From contig NZ_VTPX01000009.1 in assembly GCF_008298015.1 (NCBI RefSeq), positions 124,001-188,000 of the forward strand: 64,000 bases of DNA, written 5' to 3'. The notes beneath the pieces are model-generated. The model was not told the DNA's origin and ran no database searches. It saw nothing but the letters and a program-made list of their open reading frames with translations. The translations under genes were made by a program, and so were the position numbers. This document shows, piece after piece, positions 9,822-18,350 of this stretch. Each line of letters begins with the position of its first letter. Positions within the stretch are counted from its first letter, which is position 1. The DNA comes from Salinicola corii (GTDB taxonomy: Bacteria; Pseudomonadota; Gammaproteobacteria; Pseudomonadales; Halomonadaceae).

Positions 9822-11264
9822 ATGACCGCCTGGAACAAGCTGCTGGTCGCGACGACGCGGCTGCTGGATCTACACGACAGCGCCCACGAACCGGGCTCGC
9901 CCTTCGTCCAGGTCTCCCAGGAGCAGCGTCGCGGCCTTCGCGACGGCTACTGGCTCGACCTGGGCTGCCTGCTGCTGGACTACCTGCTCGAGGTGGACTT
10001 CGCCACCAACAGCGCCTTTGTCACCCAGCGTCGCTGCCTGGCCCACCTGCGAGGGGACTATCCCGAGCTGCCAGCGGACGATCTGAGCTTCGTCATCAAT
10101 CTGCTGGCGACCCCCAGCGAGATTCACTATCGGGAGTGGCAGGCGGACGCCGCCGACAGCGGGGCCGGTGAGGGCGAAACCCCGCCGGGAACGCGCGGCG
10201 GCCGCAGCACCAAGCGCACGGCGTTGATCGAGAAGCAGGGCCAGACCGGCCAGGTGCGGTTGACGCCCAGCGGCCGCCAGGCGGTCACTCTGGCCAGCCA
10301 GGTCGAGGACCTGCTCTATTCGGAGTATGACGCCGCCAAGGTCATTGCCGCGCTCTCCCGCGGAGACTACGCCCGGGTCCCCGACATCACCCAGCAGATC
10401 CTGATGGCGATTCGCGCGCTGACCCAGGAGCTGCGGCGGGTTCGCGAGAATCCGACCCACGAGGGCAAGCTGGCCGCACTGCTGGACAACGAGCGTCACT
10501 ACCACAATGCGCTGAACACCATCCAGAGCACGCTGCTCAGCGCGCGGTCGCAGCTCTCGACGCCGACCCTGATCGCCCACTTCGATGCCTGGGCCGAGCG
10601 GCAGGAGGAGGAGTGGGACCTGCGCATGCTCTCCGCCACCATCGGGCGGGTGTTGAACGCCATCGAGAATCTCTCGCGGCGACTGTCCGAACTGTTGTCG
10701 GATATCGCCGAGGGACGGATCCAGTCGATGGGCGTGATCGACTTCGCCGGGCTGGCGCACCAACTGTTGCTCTCGCCGCCCCCCGAGCGTCTGCAGGATG
10801 CGGTGGTGGCGCGCATGATGCCGCTCGGCACGCAGGTAGCGATGCCCCGCGTGGAGACGCTGCTGCCGCTGGTGGAAACCCGCCGCGCCGAGCGCAGCGG
10901 GGCGGCGCTGGTCTTCGACGAGGCCAGTGACAAGCCCAGCGCCGATCCGCTGCTGGCGCGCTATCTCAAGGCGCGTGGCCCGGCCCTGCGCCAGCGCCTG
11001 CGGCAGGCGCCGCTGTCGCTGCCGGAAGCGCTCAGCGAGGGCTGGCACCACTTCGAGGCGGACCCGGCCCACACCGAAACCCTGGACTGCCTGCCGCAAC
11101 TGCTCAACACCTTCGTCGACACCCAACTGCTCGATGACCACCTGAGCGTCGGTATCGACGACACCCCATTCTCGATCGCGCTGCCCGACGGACGCCGCAT
11201 CGAGGGCGCGGTGACGCCCTCGCTGCGCCTGCGAAAGACGGCAACGAAAGAACAGAAGGTCTGA
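9822..11264 (+). CDS. Kleisin-like subunit of an SMC module (MksF/JetA-like)
   Basis: The first gene of a tightly packed three-gene set (480 aa). It is helical, with winged-helix-like ends and a long central helical part (about residues 165-300) rich in charged residues and leucine. The segment 110-140 is low-complexity (Gly/Glu/Thr/Lys). Position, size and neighbours match MksF of MksBEF condensins and JetA of Wadjet systems, the kleisin that bridges the heads of the SMC dimer. The call rests mainly on gene order next to the SMC-like ATPase; primary sequence shows no decisive motif. The stop is 3 bases before the next ATG, so the genes are co-transcribed. Confidence 0.6.
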   Translation: MTAWNKLLVATTRLLDLHDSAHEPGSPFVQVSQEQRRGLRDGYWLDLGCLLLDYLLEVDFATNSAFVTQRRCLAHLRGDYPELPADDLSFVINLLATPSEIHYREWQADAADSGAGEGETPPGTRGGRSTKRTALIEKQGQTGQVRLTPSGRQAVTLASQVEDLLYSEYDAAKVIAALSRGDYARVPDITQQILMAIRALTQELRRVRENPTHEGKLAALLDNERHYHNALNTIQSTLLSARSQLSTPTLIAHFDAWAERQEEEWDLRMLSATIGRVLNAIENLSRRLSELLSDIAEGRIQSMGVIDFAGLAHQLLLSPPPERLQDAVVARMMPLGTQVAMPRVETLLPLVETRRAERSGAALVFDEASDKPSADPLLARYLKARGPALRQRLRQAPLSLPEALSEGWHHFEADPAHTETLDCLPQLLNTFVDTQLLDDHLSVGIDDTPFSIALPDGRRIEGAVTPSLRLRKTATKEQKV

Positions 11265-11267
11265 TTT

Positions 11268-12197
11268 ATGAACATGATGGAAATGGGCGAGGTCGTTGCC
11301 TATCTGTTGCGCTACCGCACCGCGGAACGGGTCCCCAGCGGCGGCCGCAAGCGCCGCGCCGCGCGCGAGGGCCAGCTCTCCGAGCGCGACGTCTGTGCCC
11401 TGATCGACGACGCCCAGGAGAACGAGCGCGAGGCGTTGCGGGACTTTCTTGCCGGCCAGGGGCTGCGGCTCAAGGCGTTCGAATCCGGCGACTATCCGGG
11501 CATCGCACCGGGATCGCGGTTCTTCGCGCTGCTGCCGGATCCCGAGCTCGAGCAGCCGCCGCTCTACACCCGTGAAGCGGTATTCGAGGCACTCAAGCTG
11601 CGCCAGGAGAGCCGGGCCGAGCTGGCGCTGTGGTATCTGCAGCTGTGGCTGTTGCTGCATACCCTGATCTACACCCGGCTGAACCGTGCCCTGTCCGACG
11701 TCAGCCGCTATCAGGAGGCCACGTTCGTCACCCGCGAACTGGTCGAACTGGTGCGCGATCAACTGGAGACGCTGCGCGGTCTCGGCGATCGGGCACCGGA
11801 GAACAGCCGGGTGCTGCTCGATGAGCGCGGCGAGGACATCCCTCGTCGGGTCAAGGCGTTCATCGATCTGCTGGTGCGTGCCGGTCATCTCGAGGCCGTT
11901 CGAGAAGCCGTCGACGAGGATGTCTGGCAGCAGACCCTGCTGGGGGCACTGGAAGCCGAGCAGATTGGGGTCAACCACCTGACACACCTGATCGAGCTGA
12001 CCTCTACCGAGCCCTCGGACCGTCCCTTCGACAGCGCCGGGAAGGATGTCGCCGACGAGGCGCTGGACCAGAGTCCGGCCAGCGGGTCTGGCGATAGCGA
12101 CGACGATCCCGAGACGCGCGCCGCCGACATGTTCGACGAGCCGTCGGAAGACATGGATGGATCGACGACCGAGAACGCCGAGGAGAATCGCCGGTGA
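11268..12197 (+). CDS. MksE/JetB-like accessory subunit of the SMC module
   Basis: A 309-residue protein between the kleisin-like and ATPase genes. The first 240 residues look helical and winged-helix-like (for example PLYTREAVFEALKLRQESRA, then a hydrophobic helix ALWYLQLWLLLHTLIY). The last 70 are acidic and apparently disordered (SGSGDSDDDPETRAADMF). MksE/MukE/JetB proteins are KITE subunits binding the kleisin; size and order fit that role, although the acidic tail is longer than usual. The stop overlaps the next start as GTGA (12194-12197), indicating translational coupling. Assignment is by context. Confidence 0.55.
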   Translation: MNMMEMGEVVAYLLRYRTAERVPSGGRKRRAAREGQLSERDVCALIDDAQENEREALRDFLAGQGLRLKAFESGDYPGIAPGSRFFALLPDPELEQPPLYTREAVFEALKLRQESRAELALWYLQLWLLLHTLIYTRLNRALSDVSRYQEATFVTRELVELVRDQLETLRGLGDRAPENSRVLLDERGEDIPRRVKAFIDLLVRAGHLEAVREAVDEDVWQQTLLGALEAEQIGVNHLTHLIELTSTEPSDRPFDSAGKDVADEALDQSPASGSGDSDDDPETRAADMFDEPSEDMDGSTTENAEENRR

Positions 12198-15100
12198 GTG
12201 TCATCAACCGTATCGAGATCGCCAACCTGCTCAACAAGCACGGTGACATCGCCTCGCCCTGGGAAGCCAAGATGCGTCACCTGCTGCTCGACCTGCGCGG
12301 GCAGTCGAGCGCGATCAGCATGGAGAACGGCTTCGGCAAGACCACCATGGCCGAGGCCTTGATCGGCATGCTCTCCCGCGATCGCCAGCTCCTGACCCGA
12401 ACCCGGCGCAAGTGCTCGCCGTCGAAGGTCAACGGCGAGGGCCGCAGTTGGACGCACCTGCGCGTCGAGTTTCGCGCCCAGGACAGCGCCAGCCAGCAGG
12501 ACGACATGCTGGCCGTCGCCGGCGAGGAAGTCGCCGGCGAGACCTTCGTGTTCGGCATGTACGGCTACAGCGACGGCAGCGGGCTGGTGTTCTACCACTA
12601 TCCGGGCAAGCTGGCCGACGTACCGGTGCATCACATTACCCGTGACGGCAAGCTGGCGCTCTACGCCAATGCCGACTTCCAGAGCACGATGCGTGCGCAG
12701 GGGGTGACCCGGGCCCACAACCGCGAGGAGTGGCTGGAAGCGGTGGGGGCGCATATCTCGCGCCGTGAACTGGCGCAGATGGCGGCGTTCCAGAAGGAGG
12801 GTGGCGCCGACAAGAGCCAGATCTTCAACGCGATCAAGCCGCGCGCCGGCGAGAAGGCCGACCAGGCCTTCTTCTACGAAGTGCTGGCGCCGCAAATTCT
12901 GTCCGGGGCGACTCGCGGCGAGACCGACGAGGAGGAGGAACTGATCGAGGACGTGATCCTCAACTCCGGCACCCGGATCACCGAACTGCGCCATCGGCTG
13001 GCGGAAGCCGAAAGCGACCAGCAGCGCGCCGGTGACAAGGTCGAGCGGCTGGCCACCCTGAACGAAGAGGGCGAGGGGCTGCTCGAGGCGCGTCGCCAGT
13101 TGGCCGAACTCGATGCCTCGCTGCTCGAGGCCGAGCGACTGCTGGGTGGCCAGGCGCTGGCACCGCTGCCGGGCTTGCCGGGAGGCAGCGGCAGTGCCGA
13201 GCAGGCCGCACCCGCCGAGGAAGCGGCCGACAATGCCGTCGGCTTCGCCTGGGCGGCCGGCGATACCGAACGCCCGCGGGTCTCCACGTGGCTGTTGGCC
13301 AAGCTGTCGCGCCAGGCCGAGCGTAACGTGCGGTTGGCGCTTTCCGAACGCGGTGCGCGCGTCGATACGCATCGTCGCCTGATCCACTTGCCGCAGGCGA
13401 CCTGGATCACGGCCCGCGACATCGGTCATGTCTCGTTCGACCAGGCCCGGGCCTGGCTGGCGGACAGTCACGCCTTCAATGACGACGCCTCTCGCTACCG
13501 TGCGCTCGGCCTGCTCGACGACGCCGCCGAGGCGTTCGAGTCGATGGATGGCAACCGTTTTCGCGAAGAGGTGATCGCCGACCGCGAGTATCGCCGTTCG
13601 CTGCGGCTCGATGCCGAACAGCTCGATGAGGAGATGGAGCGGCTGGAGCAGGAGCGCGAGCAGCTGGAATCGCGGCAGCGAGATTTCATCGACAACCAGA
13701 GCGTCTACACCCAGGCACTGGCCGAGGGGCTCTTCACCGAGGCCGAGCTGGAAGCGCCGGAAGCCACCCGCGAGAGCGCGCAGGCCAGGCTGGCAGGGAC
13801 CCGCAAGGCCCATGCCGACCACCTGGGGCGGATGGGCGAGCTGAAGCAGCCGGCGCAGTGGTACGAAGCGTTCACTGCCGAACATCCCGCTACCACACCC
13901 GACGAACTGCTGGCGACCAAGGAAGCACAGCGGGAGCGTCTGGAAGCGCAGCTTGACGATTGGGACGCTCAGGCCAGTTCACTGGACACTCAGCGCGAGA
14001 CGATCCGCGAAGCGCTGCAGACGCGACGCGAGCAGCGCCAGCGCCTGGAAGGGGAGCTGGCGCCGCTGGCCTCCGGCCGGCAGGCCTGGCAGACCTTCGC
14101 CGAACGCTGGCCCGAGCACTCGGCGGTGGGGTTCTGGAGCGAACGCAAGAACGCGCTGGCAGAACACGAGCAGGCGCTGGCCGAGAGTCGGCGGGCCCAG
14201 AGCGATGCCAAGGCGCGCTTCGAACGGCTGACGCCGCTCAGGGACGCCGCCGAGCGTTATCGTCACTGGCACGGCGAGGCCTCGCCGGTGCATCTGCGGG
14301 ACACGCTCTATCGCCAGTCACGGGAAGCCCAGGATCGCCTGCACCGACTCGACCAGCAGGGCCAGCAGCTCGGGACCCTGCAGCAGGCGCTGCACGACTT
14401 CAGGGAGTTCAGCGAACAGGCGCCCTCGGCTTGGCTCAAGGATGCCAAGGCGCGCTACCCCCGCCTGCTGCGAGAGCAGGAGACGCTGGCGGCCGCCATC
14501 GACGCGCGCGAGCAGTATCTCGAGAGCCTGAGCGGCGATCCGCTGGCCCGGCTCGCTTCCGAGGCCGAAGCCCGGGCGTGTCTCGACGCCAGGGAGATCG
14601 CCTTTCGCCCCCTCCACGAGGTGCTGGCCGGTATCGAGGCGGAAGACGGCCAGCGTCGCGAATGGCTGGCCCAGGCCGCCGGCCAGCTGTTCGCGCCGGT
14701 GGTCGAAGGTGAAGACAACGCCCGCGAAGCGTCGCAGTGCCTGGTGGACGCCGGCTGCGGCGTTCCGGTGCTCGAGGCCGATCGCCTGCAGGCGACGCTG
14801 GCACGTGGCGAGCTGCCGCTGGGGGCGGTGCAGGGCGTCGAGACGCTGGCGGTCAAGGCCGCGCTCGACCCCGCTTATCTGACCGCGCTGCGGGAGGAGA
14901 CCCAGCAGCGTCTCGCGGTCGACCGTGAACGCCAGCTGGCGCTGGAAGCCGAGGTCCAGCGACTCGACCCCCACGGCGAGCGTTTCCGCCTGGCGCTGCA
15001 GGCCGAGGAAGCGGTCAGCCAGGATGTGGAAGTGCAACTGGCGGCGCTGGAGGAGCAGCGCGAGCGGGCCGAGAGCGAACGGCAGGCGCTCGAGCCGCGC

Positions 15101-17110
15101 CTGAGCGAAGCGGCGATGAAATCGATCGACGATTTCCAGCGCTTCCTCGAGGAGGGCGGCGAGCCCGCGCTGGAAGCGGCCGTCGAGGAGAGCGAGGCTG
15201 CCGCGGCTCGTATCGAGACGCTGAGTCCGCAGCGCGAGCAGGCCGCCAGGGAGCTGGAGACCCACGGTGAGCTCTGGCTGGCGGCGGAGCGATTCGCCAC
15301 GGCCGGTGGCGTCGAGCGTCTCGAGGAGATCGACGCCAGTCTGGCGGCGCTGACCGAGACCTTGACCGAGTACGAGGAGCGGTTCGCCGAGATCGCGCTG
15401 CAGAGTGAAGAGTTGAACGCCCGTCGCGACGCGTGTCGCGAGCAGCTGCGTCATCTGTTCGCCGACGGGGAGCGCGAGCGCCTGCGCCGCCTGGCGGCGT
15501 TCGTCGCCGAAGAGGGGCCTGGCTTCATGCGCGATGCCGAGGCTCAGGAAACGGCACTGGCGGCCGCACTGGCCCAGGCCAGTCGACGAGCCGACTTCGA
15601 TTTCGCGCGGATCCGGGCCTTCCTGGATGTCCGCGACGATCAGGGGGGCAATCGCACCCTGGAACGCGACATCGGCCGCCTCAAGCAGTCGCTCAAGGAG
15701 GCGCGGGAGCGGCGCAAGGCCAATGGTCGCGAGCAGGGCGCGGTGGAAGCCCGCGTGGCCCGCCACCAGCAGGCGCTGACGGTGGTGGACCAGCTGGCGG
15801 TGGCGTGGCTGGAGGTGTTGCGTCAACTGCCCGAGGGCTGGCTGGAGCGTGCCGCCGCGGACGCCACGGCCCGCTGGCCGGCGGTGGGTGTCGACGCGCC
15901 ACGGCTCGACGCGGCCATGGACGACTGGCGCCAGTGGCTGGCGACGGCGCTGGATGATCCCGACCAAGAGACGGATGCCGCCGCTTTCGATCTCGAGGCC
16001 TTGGAGACCTGTCAGCAGACCCTGCTGGAGGGGCTGGGCGGGCTCAACCTCGGCGAGCGTGCCCGCAACCGGGAGCGGCAGGCCCGCGATGTGGCGGCCA
16101 GGGAGAAGGCGCTGGCGCTGTCGCTGGAGTCGGCCAGTGCCAGCCGGCTGTTCAACGAAACCGAACGCGCGCGGCTGGATACGCTGGAGGGCGTCAGCCA
16201 CGCGGCGCTGGAGTCGCTGCGGGGTCTGCACCGTCAGCTGGGGGGGCAGCTGGAGGAGCATCGCCAGCGCGTGGCCCGGTTGCACGCATCCCGGGAGCAG
16301 ATCGAGGACACCCTGGTCGAGCGCCTGAGTTCGATCATCATCGACGCGGCCGGCAATCTGGAAATTCTCAAGCGTGTCGCGAAACGCTCCAGCGGCGGTG
16401 GCGCCTACTTCGAGGTCAAGGCCGACCTGATCGCCGACGAGTCGGTACGGGAGTTGATTCAGCAGTTGCTGGCGGACATCGACGCCCATCTCGCGGTACA
16501 ACGGCGGCGCCTCGAGCAGGCAGGCGATGGCGCGCAGGCCAAGGGCGGCCGCGACGACGAGCTGACCCGCCAGATTCGTCGACGCATCTATCGCGGGCTG
16601 TTCTGCGACGTCACGATCCGCCTCAAGCACGATGCGATCCGCCCGCATGGCCGGCTATTCTCGCTCAACGAGGACATGTCGGAAGGCCAGCGCGAGGCGG
16701 TCTCGCTGATGTGGTTGGTGAAACTTTCCGAGTTCGCCATCGAGCGCGAGTTGCGAGAGCTACCCGGTAGCCACAAGCGCCGGGCCCGTGCCAGCCGCGA
16801 GAGTGTCATCCTGCTCGATGGCCTGTTCTCCAAACTCTCCCATCGCCGCCTGATCCAGGATTCGCTGGAATCGCTGCGCAATACACGCGGGCGTTTCCAG
16901 ATGATCGGCCTGATCCACAACCCCAACTACGAGAACGACCCGAGCATCTTCCCCACCTATCTGGTCGGCAGCGTGATCGGCGGTCAGCAGGGGCAGGGCG
17001 GCCATGTCATCGTACGTGAGGGGCAGGCAGTGGCTCCCGAGGAGGCCGGCCGGGGTAGCGGCGAAGCCAGCCTGTTCGGTATCCACGTGACGCCGGCTCC
17101 GGTGGAGTGA
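12194..17110 (+). CDS. Very long SMC-like ATPase (MksB/JetC/MukB-like) with divergent motifs
   Basis: A 1638-residue protein. The N-terminal ABC-type head has a P-loop reading MENGFGKTT at residues 43-51, where the usual first glycine is methionine. It is followed by long charged coiled coil (about 450-820 and 910-1480, full of Glu/Arg/Gln/Leu). A less charged hinge-like globular part lies near 830-905 (QLFAPVVEGED...GCGVPVLEAD). The C-terminal head has a signature-like MSEGQREAVS near 1495 and a Walker B-like VILLDGLFSKLS near 1538-1549. The residue after the Walker B aspartate, normally the catalytic glutamate, is glycine (codon GGC). MksB is usually about 900-1000 aa and JetC about 1100, so the arms are long, closer to MukB. 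Start GTG overlaps the previous stop. It likely loads on DNA as a condensin-like loop former. Confidence 0.75.
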   Translation: MSVINRIEIANLLNKHGDIASPWEAKMRHLLLDLRGQSSAISMENGFGKTTMAEALIGMLSRDRQLLTRTRRKCSPSKVNGEGRSWTHLRVEFRAQDSASQQDDMLAVAGEEVAGETFVFGMYGYSDGSGLVFYHYPGKLADVPVHHITRDGKLALYANADFQSTMRAQGVTRAHNREEWLEAVGAHISRRELAQMAAFQKEGGADKSQIFNAIKPRAGEKADQAFFYEVLAPQILSGATRGETDEEEELIEDVILNSGTRITELRHRLAEAESDQQRAGDKVERLATLNEEGEGLLEARRQLAELDASLLEAERLLGGQALAPLPGLPGGSGSAEQAAPAEEAADNAVGFAWAAGDTERPRVSTWLLAKLSRQAERNVRLALSERGARVDTHRRLIHLPQATWITARDIGHVSFDQARAWLADSHAFNDDASRYRALGLLDDAAEAFESMDGNRFREEVIADREYRRSLRLDAEQLDEEMERLEQEREQLESRQRDFIDNQSVYTQALAEGLFTEAELEAPEATRESAQARLAGTRKAHADHLGRMGELKQPAQWYEAFTAEHPATTPDELLATKEAQRERLEAQLDDWDAQASSLDTQRETIREALQTRREQRQRLEGELAPLASGRQAWQTFAERWPEHSAVGFWSERKNALAEHEQALAESRRAQSDAKARFERLTPLRDAAERYRHWHGEASPVHLRDTLYRQSREAQDRLHRLDQQGQQLGTLQQALHDFREFSEQAPSAWLKDAKARYPRLLREQETLAAAIDAREQYLESLSGDPLARLASEAEARACLDAREIAFRPLHEVLAGIEAEDGQRREWLAQAAGQLFAPVVEGEDNAREASQCLVDAGCGVPVLEADRLQATLARGELPLGAVQGVETLAVKAALDPAYLTALREETQQRLAVDRERQLALEAEVQRLDPHGERFRLALQAEEAVSQDVEVQLAALEEQRERAESERQALEPRLSEAAMKSIDDFQRFLEEGGEPALEAAVEESEAAAARIETLSPQREQAARELETHGELWLAAERFATAGGVERLEEIDASLAALTETLTEYEERFAEIALQSEELNARRDACREQLRHLFADGERERLRRLAAFVAEEGPGFMRDAEAQETALAAALAQASRRADFDFARIRAFLDVRDDQGGNRTLERDIGRLKQSLKEARERRKANGREQGAVEARVARHQQALTVVDQLAVAWLEVLRQLPEGWLERAAADATARWPAVGVDAPRLDAAMDDWRQWLATALDDPDQETDAAAFDLEALETCQQTLLEGLGGLNLGERARNRERQARDVAAREKALALSLESASASRLFNETERARLDTLEGVSHAALESLRGLHRQLGGQLEEHRQRVARLHASREQIEDTLVERLSSIIIDAAGNLEILKRVAKRSSGGGAYFEVKADLIADESVRELIQQLLADIDAHLAVQRRRLEQAGDGAQAKGGRDDELTRQIRRRIYRGLFCDVTIRLKHDAIRPHGRLFSLNEDMSEGQREAVSLMWLVKLSEFAIERELRELPGSHKRRARASRESVILLDGLFSKLSHRRLIQDSLESLRNTRGRFQMIGLIHNPNYENDPSIFPTYLVGSVIGGQQGQGGHVIVREGQAVAPEEAGRGSGEASLFGIHVTPAPVE

Positions 17111-17119
17111 AGGATGAGA

Positions 17120-17151
17120 ACGGGCCTACCGCAACGGCAGGCCCGTTTTTA
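17120..17151 (+). terminator. Intrinsic terminator of the SMC module
   Basis: ACGGGCCT (17120-17127) pairs with AGGCCCGT (17139-17146), followed by TTTTT. It lies 9 bases after the SMC-like gene stop and closes the three-gene unit, so no fourth gene (JetD/MksG) is part of the operon. Confidence 0.88.
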
Positions 17152-17198
17152 TCCATCCGTGCGACGATCTCGGGTAATCCGCGCGGCCCGCGGCCGCA

Positions 17199-18350
17199 TC
17201 AGCGCGGCGAATCGTAACGTCCACCACGACCGTTGGAGTAGACCACCTGCCACAGCTGGAGATCTCGCGCCCGGAAAGCGCCGGCGCAGGAGCCGAGATA
17301 GTAGAGGAACATCCGCTTGACCCGCTCGCCGTAGTGGTCGGCGATCTCGTGCCAGTGGGCGAGCAGGTTCTCCTGCCAAGCCATCAGCGTGGTGTCGTAA
17401 TCGGCACCGAAGTTCTGCCAGTCCTCCATGATCAGCTTGCCTTCGCTAGCGTCGGCGACCTGCTGGATCGAGGGCAAGATGCCGTTGGGGAAGATGTACT
17501 TGTTGATCCAGGGGTCGATGCTGACCTCGTTGGTGTTGGAGCCGATCGTGTGCAGCACGAACAGGCCACCGGGCTTCAGCAGGCGTTTGACGGTATCGAA
17601 GTAGGTGGCGTAATTGCGCTGGCCGACGTGTTCGAACATGCCGATCGACACGATACGGTCGAATTCGCCACTGAGCTCGCGATAATCCTCGAGCAATATC
17701 TCCACCGGCAGCCCGGCGCAGCGTTCACGGCCCAGCTTTGCCTGCTCTTCGGAGATGGTGATGCCGGTGACCTCGACGCCGTACTGGCGGGCGGCATGCT
17801 CGGCGAAGCTGGCCCAGCCGCAGCCGATGTCGAGCACTCGCATGCCGGGTTCGAGATCCAGCTTGCGGCAGGCGAGGTCGAGCTTGGCGACCTGGGCCTC
17901 GTGCAGCGTGCGGGCTTCCTTCCAGTAGCCGCAGGAGTAGCAGAGCGTCTCGTCCAGCATGCGAGTGAAAAGGTCGTTGCCGAAGTCGTAGTGCTCCTTG
18001 CCGACGATATAGGCCCGAGCCTTGCTCTGCAGGTTCATGAAGGTGGACTGAAGCTTGTAGACGATGCGTTCGGTGGTGGTGTGCGCGACCGTGCCGAGTC
18101 CGTGGCGTAGCAGGCGGTGGATCATCTCGTCGATGCGATCGCACTCCCACCAGCCATCCATGTAGGCTTCGCCGAAGCCGATGGAGCCCTGGCGAACGAC
18201 CCGCGAGAAGAGGTCGGGGTGGTGAACGCGGATATCCCAGGGCTGGTTGCCGTTGAGGGTGACACCGGAGCCTTCGAGCAGTTTCTCCAGCGTTTGACGG
18301 GCGCGGGTGTCGGGCAGCGCGACGGGGGCGATAGGCGTATTACTGGTCAT
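17199..18350 (-). CDS. cfa: Cyclopropane-fatty-acyl-phospholipid synthase
   Basis: A 383-residue SAM-dependent enzyme that methylenates double bonds of membrane phospholipid acyl chains, protecting the membrane in stationary phase, acid or salt stress. The SAM site VLDIGCGWASFAEHAA begins at residue 172. The active-site cysteine region LCYSCGYWKEARTLHEAQ (C140) matches E. coli Cfa C139. The C-terminal RMFLYYLGSCAGAFRARDLQLWQVV is characteristic. ATG at 18350 gives the usual length; the longer frame upstream is arginine-rich and unlike the family. Family identity is certain. Confidence 0.94.
   Translation of the reverse strand: MTSNTPIAPVALPDTRARQTLEKLLEGSGVTLNGNQPWDIRVHHPDLFSRVVRQGSIGFGEAYMDGWWECDRIDEMIHRLLRHGLGTVAHTTTERIVYKLQSTFMNLQSKARAYIVGKEHYDFGNDLFTRMLDETLCYSCGYWKEARTLHEAQVAKLDLACRKLDLEPGMRVLDIGCGWASFAEHAARQYGVEVTGITISEEQAKLGRERCAGLPVEILLEDYRELSGEFDRIVSIGMFEHVGQRNYATYFDTVKRLLKPGGLFVLHTIGSNTNEVSIDPWINKYIFPNGILPSIQQVADASEGKLIMEDWQNFGADYDTTLMAWQENLLAHWHEIADHYGERVKRMFLYYLGSCAGAFRARDLQLWQVVYSNGRGGRYDSPR

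Follow-up and report, generated by a model that had tools for sequence, protein, structure and literature searches.

Wadjet systems (JetABCD or MksBEFG, types I to III) combine a kleisin, a KITE subunit and an ATPase of the structural maintenance of chromosomes (SMC) type with the toprim nuclease JetD. Members of the group without the nuclease are already known, as passages of PMC7617805 record. One of these is MksBEF of Pseudomonas aeruginosa, which in passages of PMC7485682 and PMC10586767 coexists with Smc and has a role in chromosome maintenance. Passages of the latter, a review, treat MksBEF and MukBEF as lineages with a past loss of JetD, report that MukBEF replaced Smc-ScpAB, and offer, as a tempting speculation, an origin of both in Wadjet, with MksBEF likely arising through loss of JetD. 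Here we analyse a three-gene module (F, E and B) in a 64,000-nucleotide stretch of Salinicola corii contig NZ_VTPX01000009.1 (positions 124,001 to 188,000; hereafter the window). The module is probably the core of a very divergent Wadjet/Mks branch that has lost JetD and is maintained as a chromosome-acting, DNA-entrapping complex beside Smc, a reading to which we assign a probability of roughly two in three. Within the literature searched, three aspects are new: a core that the libraries leave unassigned, alternation of jetD among sister species without decay of the core, and an Asp-Gly (D-G) Walker B motif. We found no description of this branch in open-access PMC, although it may be among the supplementary operons of PMC7617805.

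Identity of the three subunits

The module and its landmarks are as follows, with positions counted within the window.

9822 to 11264, plus strand: putative MksF/JetA/MukF-like kleisin (F), 480 amino acids
11268 to 12197, plus strand: putative MksE/JetB/MukE-like KITE subunit (E), 309 amino acids, with a variable acidic C-terminal tail (low-confidence model, weak Foldseek matches)
12194 to 17110, plus strand: putative MksB/JetC/MukB-like SMC ATPase (B), 1638 amino acids, GTG start, motifs at both ends
12320 to 12346, plus strand: Walker A motif of B, residues 43-51, MENGFGKTT
16676 to 16690, plus strand: ABC signature of B, residues 1495-1499, MSEGQ
16805 to 16831, plus strand: Walker B motif of B, residues 1538-1546, VILLDGLFS, with Gly1543 (16820-16822) at the usual position of the catalytic Glu
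17111 to 17198, no strand: site of jetD in relatives, placed by sequence, both flanks aligning with the jetD-bearing locus L088 (L and G numbers are our own for loci and genomes)
17119 to 17150, plus strand: predicted intrinsic terminator closing the operon, from its fold

A sequence-only reading of this DNA had outlined three genes of these sizes, spaced by 3 base pairs (bp) between F and E, overlapping by 4 bp between E and B, and closed by a terminator. A check of the open reading frames and folding of the hairpin agreed with it. The hairpin and its T tract have a folding energy of -33 kcal/mol (z -7.1), a value that none of 200 shuffles reached, and a simple terminator scan did not list the hairpin among its terminators. 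From the GTG start, B begins MSVINRIE, as do most of 21 aligned relatives. F, E and B co-occur in the 15 flanking regions taken from relatives, although L042 has a frame-broken ATPase gene. The arrangement is therefore not due to chance.

Gene order, motifs, gene context and weak fold matches suggest that the three genes encode a kleisin, a KITE subunit and an SMC-type ATPase, in the order proposed by the earlier reading. Its suggestion of a distinct clade also holds. In B, the nucleotide-binding motifs lie at opposite ends of a long, less conserved middle part rich in L, E, A, K, R and Q. B was also correctly noted as longer than a typical MksB or JetC. It exceeds every PADLOC JetC model seen (type I, 1093-1215; type II, 1355-1365 and one partial model of 390; type III, 1451-1486 positions), and E. 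coli MukB has 1486 amino acids. The analysis of B covered its total length and composition, and the MukB-like long arms implied in the earlier reading may be present.

The predicted folds were compared by Foldseek with 350,542 chains of the PDB. The top match of F was a JetABCD chain, and MukBEF kleisin chains matched as well. The model of E was of low confidence (predicted local distance difference test score, pLDDT, 49). Nevertheless, its ranks 1-4 and 7 were MukE-MukF entries, rank 6 JetABC and rank 9 ScpAB (E 0.03-0.15, low TM-scores), the matching chains being taken as MukE, JetB and ScpB by length. Rank 5 was Tetrahymena p45C.

Sequence libraries recognised little of the module. Pfam gave no match near its cut-off for F, E or B, and the PADLOC models of JetA, JetB and JetC gave no significant match to them. 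The same PADLOC models found nothing in L118 and, in L119, only a weak JetC3 match to B (E 0.0054); both loci are distant gammaproteobacterial relatives. A PDB sequence search with B returned no matches. Profile searches of the PDB returned coiled-coil or unrelated chains only (E 0.02 or worse), which we rejected, as we did matches of the middle part of B to an archaeal SMC-related model (NCBIfam) and to LmuB (PADLOC) at 8e-4 and 1e-3, which reflect coiled coil. The Smc model TIGR02168 scored B at 12.2 bits against a cut-off of 567.35. In contrast, a housekeeping Smc elsewhere in the same genome scored 1056.5 bits, so that B-E-F would be a second SMC complex.

The module therefore resembles each described system in part. 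With Wadjet it shares the kleisin-KITE-SMC order, and 21 of the 67 related loci also have a gene for JetD that overlaps or abuts the ATPase gene. It differs in that the window has no JetD, that its JetA, JetB and JetC counterparts escape PADLOC, and that its ATPase is longer and carries D-G at Walker B. With MukBEF of E. coli it shares the order F-E-B without a linked nuclease and roughly similar subunit sizes (440, 234 and 1486 amino acids in MukBEF), and chains of MukF and MukE rank high, with weak scores, in its fold comparisons. However, no significant sequence match or Pfam/NCBIfam family match joins the two, MukB has D-E at Walker B, and Smc is present in the window's genome, unlike the reported replacement of Smc-ScpAB by MukBEF. 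The likeness to P. aeruginosa MksBEF, nuclease-less and beside Smc, is drawn from published descriptions. Type III JetC is similarly long (1481 amino acids in L143), but its N-terminal head matched that of B with only 4.9% probability over 161 columns and its C-terminal head not at all.

Presence and absence of jetD across related loci

The sequence-only reading saw no JetD gene on either side of the module, and that stands. Only the terminator lies between the ATPase stop codon at 17110 and cfa, which ends at 17199 on the minus strand, and neither JetD_C (PF09983) nor a lineage-specific JetD profile matched anywhere in the 30-contig genome. The module is not nuclease-free by origin, however. 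A JetD homologue linked to it in close relatives, which the same reading had named as evidence against its proposal, was found at 21 of 67 loci, including that of Salinicola salarius DSM 18044. The absence of jetD in the window is therefore secondary, and the nuclease has been lost repeatedly across the lineage.

To obtain these 67 loci, the best 80 of 114 confirmed matches were reduced to distinct loci; they come from Halomonadaceae genera, Oceanospirillum and one genome (two loci) labelled only Gammaproteobacteria. In 21 of them jetD directly follows B, joined by a 4-bp overlap or a 3-bp gap in 15. In 45 it is absent (among them L061, with 629 bp after B, and both L049 and L050, the latter on a second contig of the same genome). 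In the remaining locus, L100, the sequence stops 205 bp downstream of B, too soon for a judgement; it was entered as jetD-less in the tree. A six-frame profile search of the 46 loci without a JetD reading frame found no jetD except a 3' remnant in L089. In three close relatives, including a Salinicola, JetD_C matched immediately downstream of B, and within the genus only one of 18 genomes (G008) has JetD.

Identification of the fourth gene rests on clear matches. In L118 (G405) and L119 (G362) the gene after B encodes 359 and 357 amino acids, respectively, and was recognised as JetD by PADLOC (8.4e-18 and 1.5e-10) and by Pfam JetD_C (31.7 and 26 bits against a cut-off of 22). An alignment of 20 JetD rows (18 of the 21 lineage sequences, L118 and L119) showed invariant toprim residues E-N and W-G-D-x-D-x-E-G. 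Together with a plasmid-borne copy, the lineage, L118 and L119 sequences grouped apart from seven other Wadjet JetD proteins (97/99 support, long branches). With jetD present in the outgroups L118 and L119, the branch most likely descends from a system of JetABCD type with all four genes.

On a tree of 68 B sequences, which left aside L087 (frame-broken B) and L050, the distribution of jetD required at least 13 changes, 12 of them forced by well-supported branches. When labels were shuffled, the mean was 19.4 changes, and none of 500 shuffles was as low as 13. A Dollo count gave 28 losses as an upper figure. Both sides of the missing gene aligned in eight of 12 locus pairs, and also in the window; of the other four pairs, three aligned in the upstream flank only, and in L089 the second match fell inside jetD. 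Remnants of jetD persist at three loci, namely about 80 bp of its 5' end in L075, about 60 bp of the 5' end in L086, and the 3' end in L089. Sister loci without jetD, for instance L075 and L086, retain different remnants, so each may have lost the gene independently after the two diverged.

Loss may not be the whole history. The jetD and B trees have only 10 of 20 splits in common, which suggests that part of the history of jetD may be gain or transfer, and some of the 13 changes are perhaps regains. For example, S. salarius DSM 18044 has a long branch in the jetD tree, and in the sister strain 1A01339 (L085) the intergenic stretch resembles the one found in other Salinicola without jetD. The DSM 18044 gene may thus be a regain, and regain or transfer is likely in places. 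The review places the loss of JetD from MksBEF and MukBEF in the past, whereas here a single family includes loci with and without jetD, and even sister strains differ. This alternation makes the idea that MksBEF and MukBEF arose from Wadjet testable in close relatives.

Maintenance and predicted function of the core

The core has not decayed in the absence of its nuclease. The ratio of nonsynonymous to synonymous substitution rates (dN/dS) of B was 0.059-0.140 in 14 pairs in which both members lack jetD, 0.052-0.165 in eight pairs in which both have it, and 0.070-0.161 in eight mixed pairs, all of them hand-chosen near neighbours that share members and are not independent. For jetD itself the ratio was 0.21-0.32 (eight pairs); dS was saturated in one jetD pair and in two jetD-less pairs (dS > 1.3). 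Absence of jetD likewise brought no rise in the dN/dS of F. Of the 45 loci judged to lack jetD, 44 have an uninterrupted B gene. The one that does not is that of Salinicola tamaricis (L087, NZ_CP023559.1), where the ATPase gene lies in several frames, either in reality or through a sequencing fault. The core is probably retained for something independent of the nuclease, with a reserve for divergence older than the losses and for whole-locus losses, since the search began from B and genomes without the locus are invisible to it.

The ATPase itself is atypical. ABC and SMC ATPases usually rely on a Glu in Walker B for catalysis. Walker A is conserved as [I/V]SMENGFGKTT in 66 of 68 aligned sequences (MNMTNGVGKTS and VNLTNGGGKTT in two distant rows), but Walker B is D-G rather than D-E in all 68, as well as in L050, L087 and a truncated plasmid-borne relative. 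Six JetC-like ATPases (three labelled JetC1 by PADLOC, three without a PADLOC scan) and E. coli MukB have D-E. A type III JetC from the same family (L143, 2672-7117, PADLOC JetC3) has D-N, so the Glu is not universal in Wadjet. As D-G is common to jetD-bearing and jetD-less forms, it is older than the losses of jetD. Passages of PMC10123090 describe the MksB of P. aeruginosa PA14 as odd and seemingly without Walker A; atypical ATPases in this group are therefore not unheard of.

The sequences show which genes are present and to which lineage they belong, that jetD is repeatedly absent, that the core is under selection and that Walker B is changed. B-E-F is predicted to bind ATP and, by analogy with P. 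aeruginosa MksBEF, would entrap chromosomal DNA under ATP control and organise it, or some large replicon, alongside the housekeeping Smc. Without JetD the complex would not be expected to cleave DNA. Loop extrusion is doubtful, because Walker B has no Glu. More tentatively, and with the odds somewhat against it, the head could act as an ATP-switched DNA clamp or use another catalytic base, with a plasmid-defence machine undergoing repeated conversion, in sister species, into a nuclease-free chromosome-acting complex. If so, this would be an SMC lineage without the catalytic Walker B Glu and not a normal loop-extruding motor, and D-G would force a rethink of what an SMC head requires.

Several observations weigh against a maintained chromosomal complex of Wadjet descent. 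The fold matches of F and E have E values above 0.001 and low TM-scores, with unrelated folds close behind. In profile comparisons with seven JetC and MukB, the N-terminal head of B gave only a short Walker A match (up to 60% probability), the C-terminal head gave none, and no hinge could be demonstrated in the presumed hinge stretch. Ordinary ATP-driven loop extrusion is hard to reconcile with the lack of the catalytic Glu. The highest dN/dS of E was 0.244 in jetD-less against 0.165 in jetD-bearing pairs, although the medians were alike (0.13 and 0.14), and pairs without jetD may have diverged in part before they lost it. Within the family the core has a patchy distribution, as suits an accessory system, and L118 lies among defence-like genes. 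These last two points would fit a module that is still defensive, its JetABC silencing or trapping plasmids without cutting, or borrowing a nuclease encoded elsewhere. Relatives with JetD exist, and the perhaps re-acquired jetD of S. salarius DSM 18044 looks as if the nuclease were exchangeable. Yet the two JetD profiles found nothing to borrow in the window's genome, and 17 of the genus's 18 genomes likewise gave no match; we regard continued defence as unlikely, while giving it real weight.

Loss of jetD might instead be the first step towards loss of the whole locus. The remnants at three loci, the broken ATPase gene of S. tamaricis and the 131 of 201 family genomes without a match, together with the blindness of a B-started search to complete losses, would be in keeping with such decay. 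It is nonetheless very improbable given the intact B genes of 44 jetD-less loci and dN/dS values of B and F that do not rise without jetD. We give scarcely any credence to the notion that this is no SMC complex at all, its likeness being one of coiled coil and P-loop. The lack of significant Pfam matches, the coiled-coil level of the NCBIfam and PADLOC hits, the lack of convincing PDB sequence matches and the low-confidence models with weak fold scores would all allow it. It would, however, leave unexplained why JetABCD, MukBEF and ScpAB chains stand at or near the top for F and E among so many PDB chains, and why the fourth gene of L118 and L119 is a JetD above the Pfam cut-off.

Distribution and genomic neighbourhood

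The module is concentrated in the window's family. B was found in 24 of 58 relatives searched, including all 18 of the genus, and the closest named relative is Salinicola sp. EAC73 (B 99% identical). Of the 201 genomes in the family sample, 70 matched, one of them (G023) over only 108 positions of the coiled-coil middle part, and 131 gave no match. The class sample gave four matches in 369 genomes (the window, the four-gene G405 and G362, and one short middle-part match), and the phylum sample two in 398, both from the window's family; with two best candidates scored per genome in these two samples, distant relatives may be missed. A search of 185 genomes of the class for the JetC3 family gave matches in 10, none of which extended beyond positions 744-1157 of 1471; we read them as coiled coil and rejected them. 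Among viral contigs, 64 stretches fitted the search pattern and none was confirmed, the phages collection lying outside that search.

Downstream of the module, cfa lies on the opposite strand in 38 of the 67 loci, at a distance of 62 bp to 6.5 kb, and was not found in the available flank of the other 29. This suggests that the cfa neighbourhood is an old chromosomal site in those lineages. The intergenic stretch between the ATPase gene and cfa (L085:13010-13477, L093:12896-13487) is common to jetD-less Salinicola, is partly inverted between strains and contains short tandem units.

The neighbours of the module in L118 (693-18954) include, as read from sequence, reverse-transcriptase-like, nucleotidyltransferase-like, Fic-like and SbcD-like genes; an AAA_27 ATPase there was assigned by library search. 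On plasmids, the sole relative found was a truncated form on two P. aeruginosa megaplasmids. One copy (L169, plasmid NZ_MT732184.1, record 227999-244799) retains only the C-terminal part of the ATPase, with its D-G Walker B. It has a Tn3-family transposase and mer genes nearby, and an annotated JetD-domain protein follows the ATPase relative.

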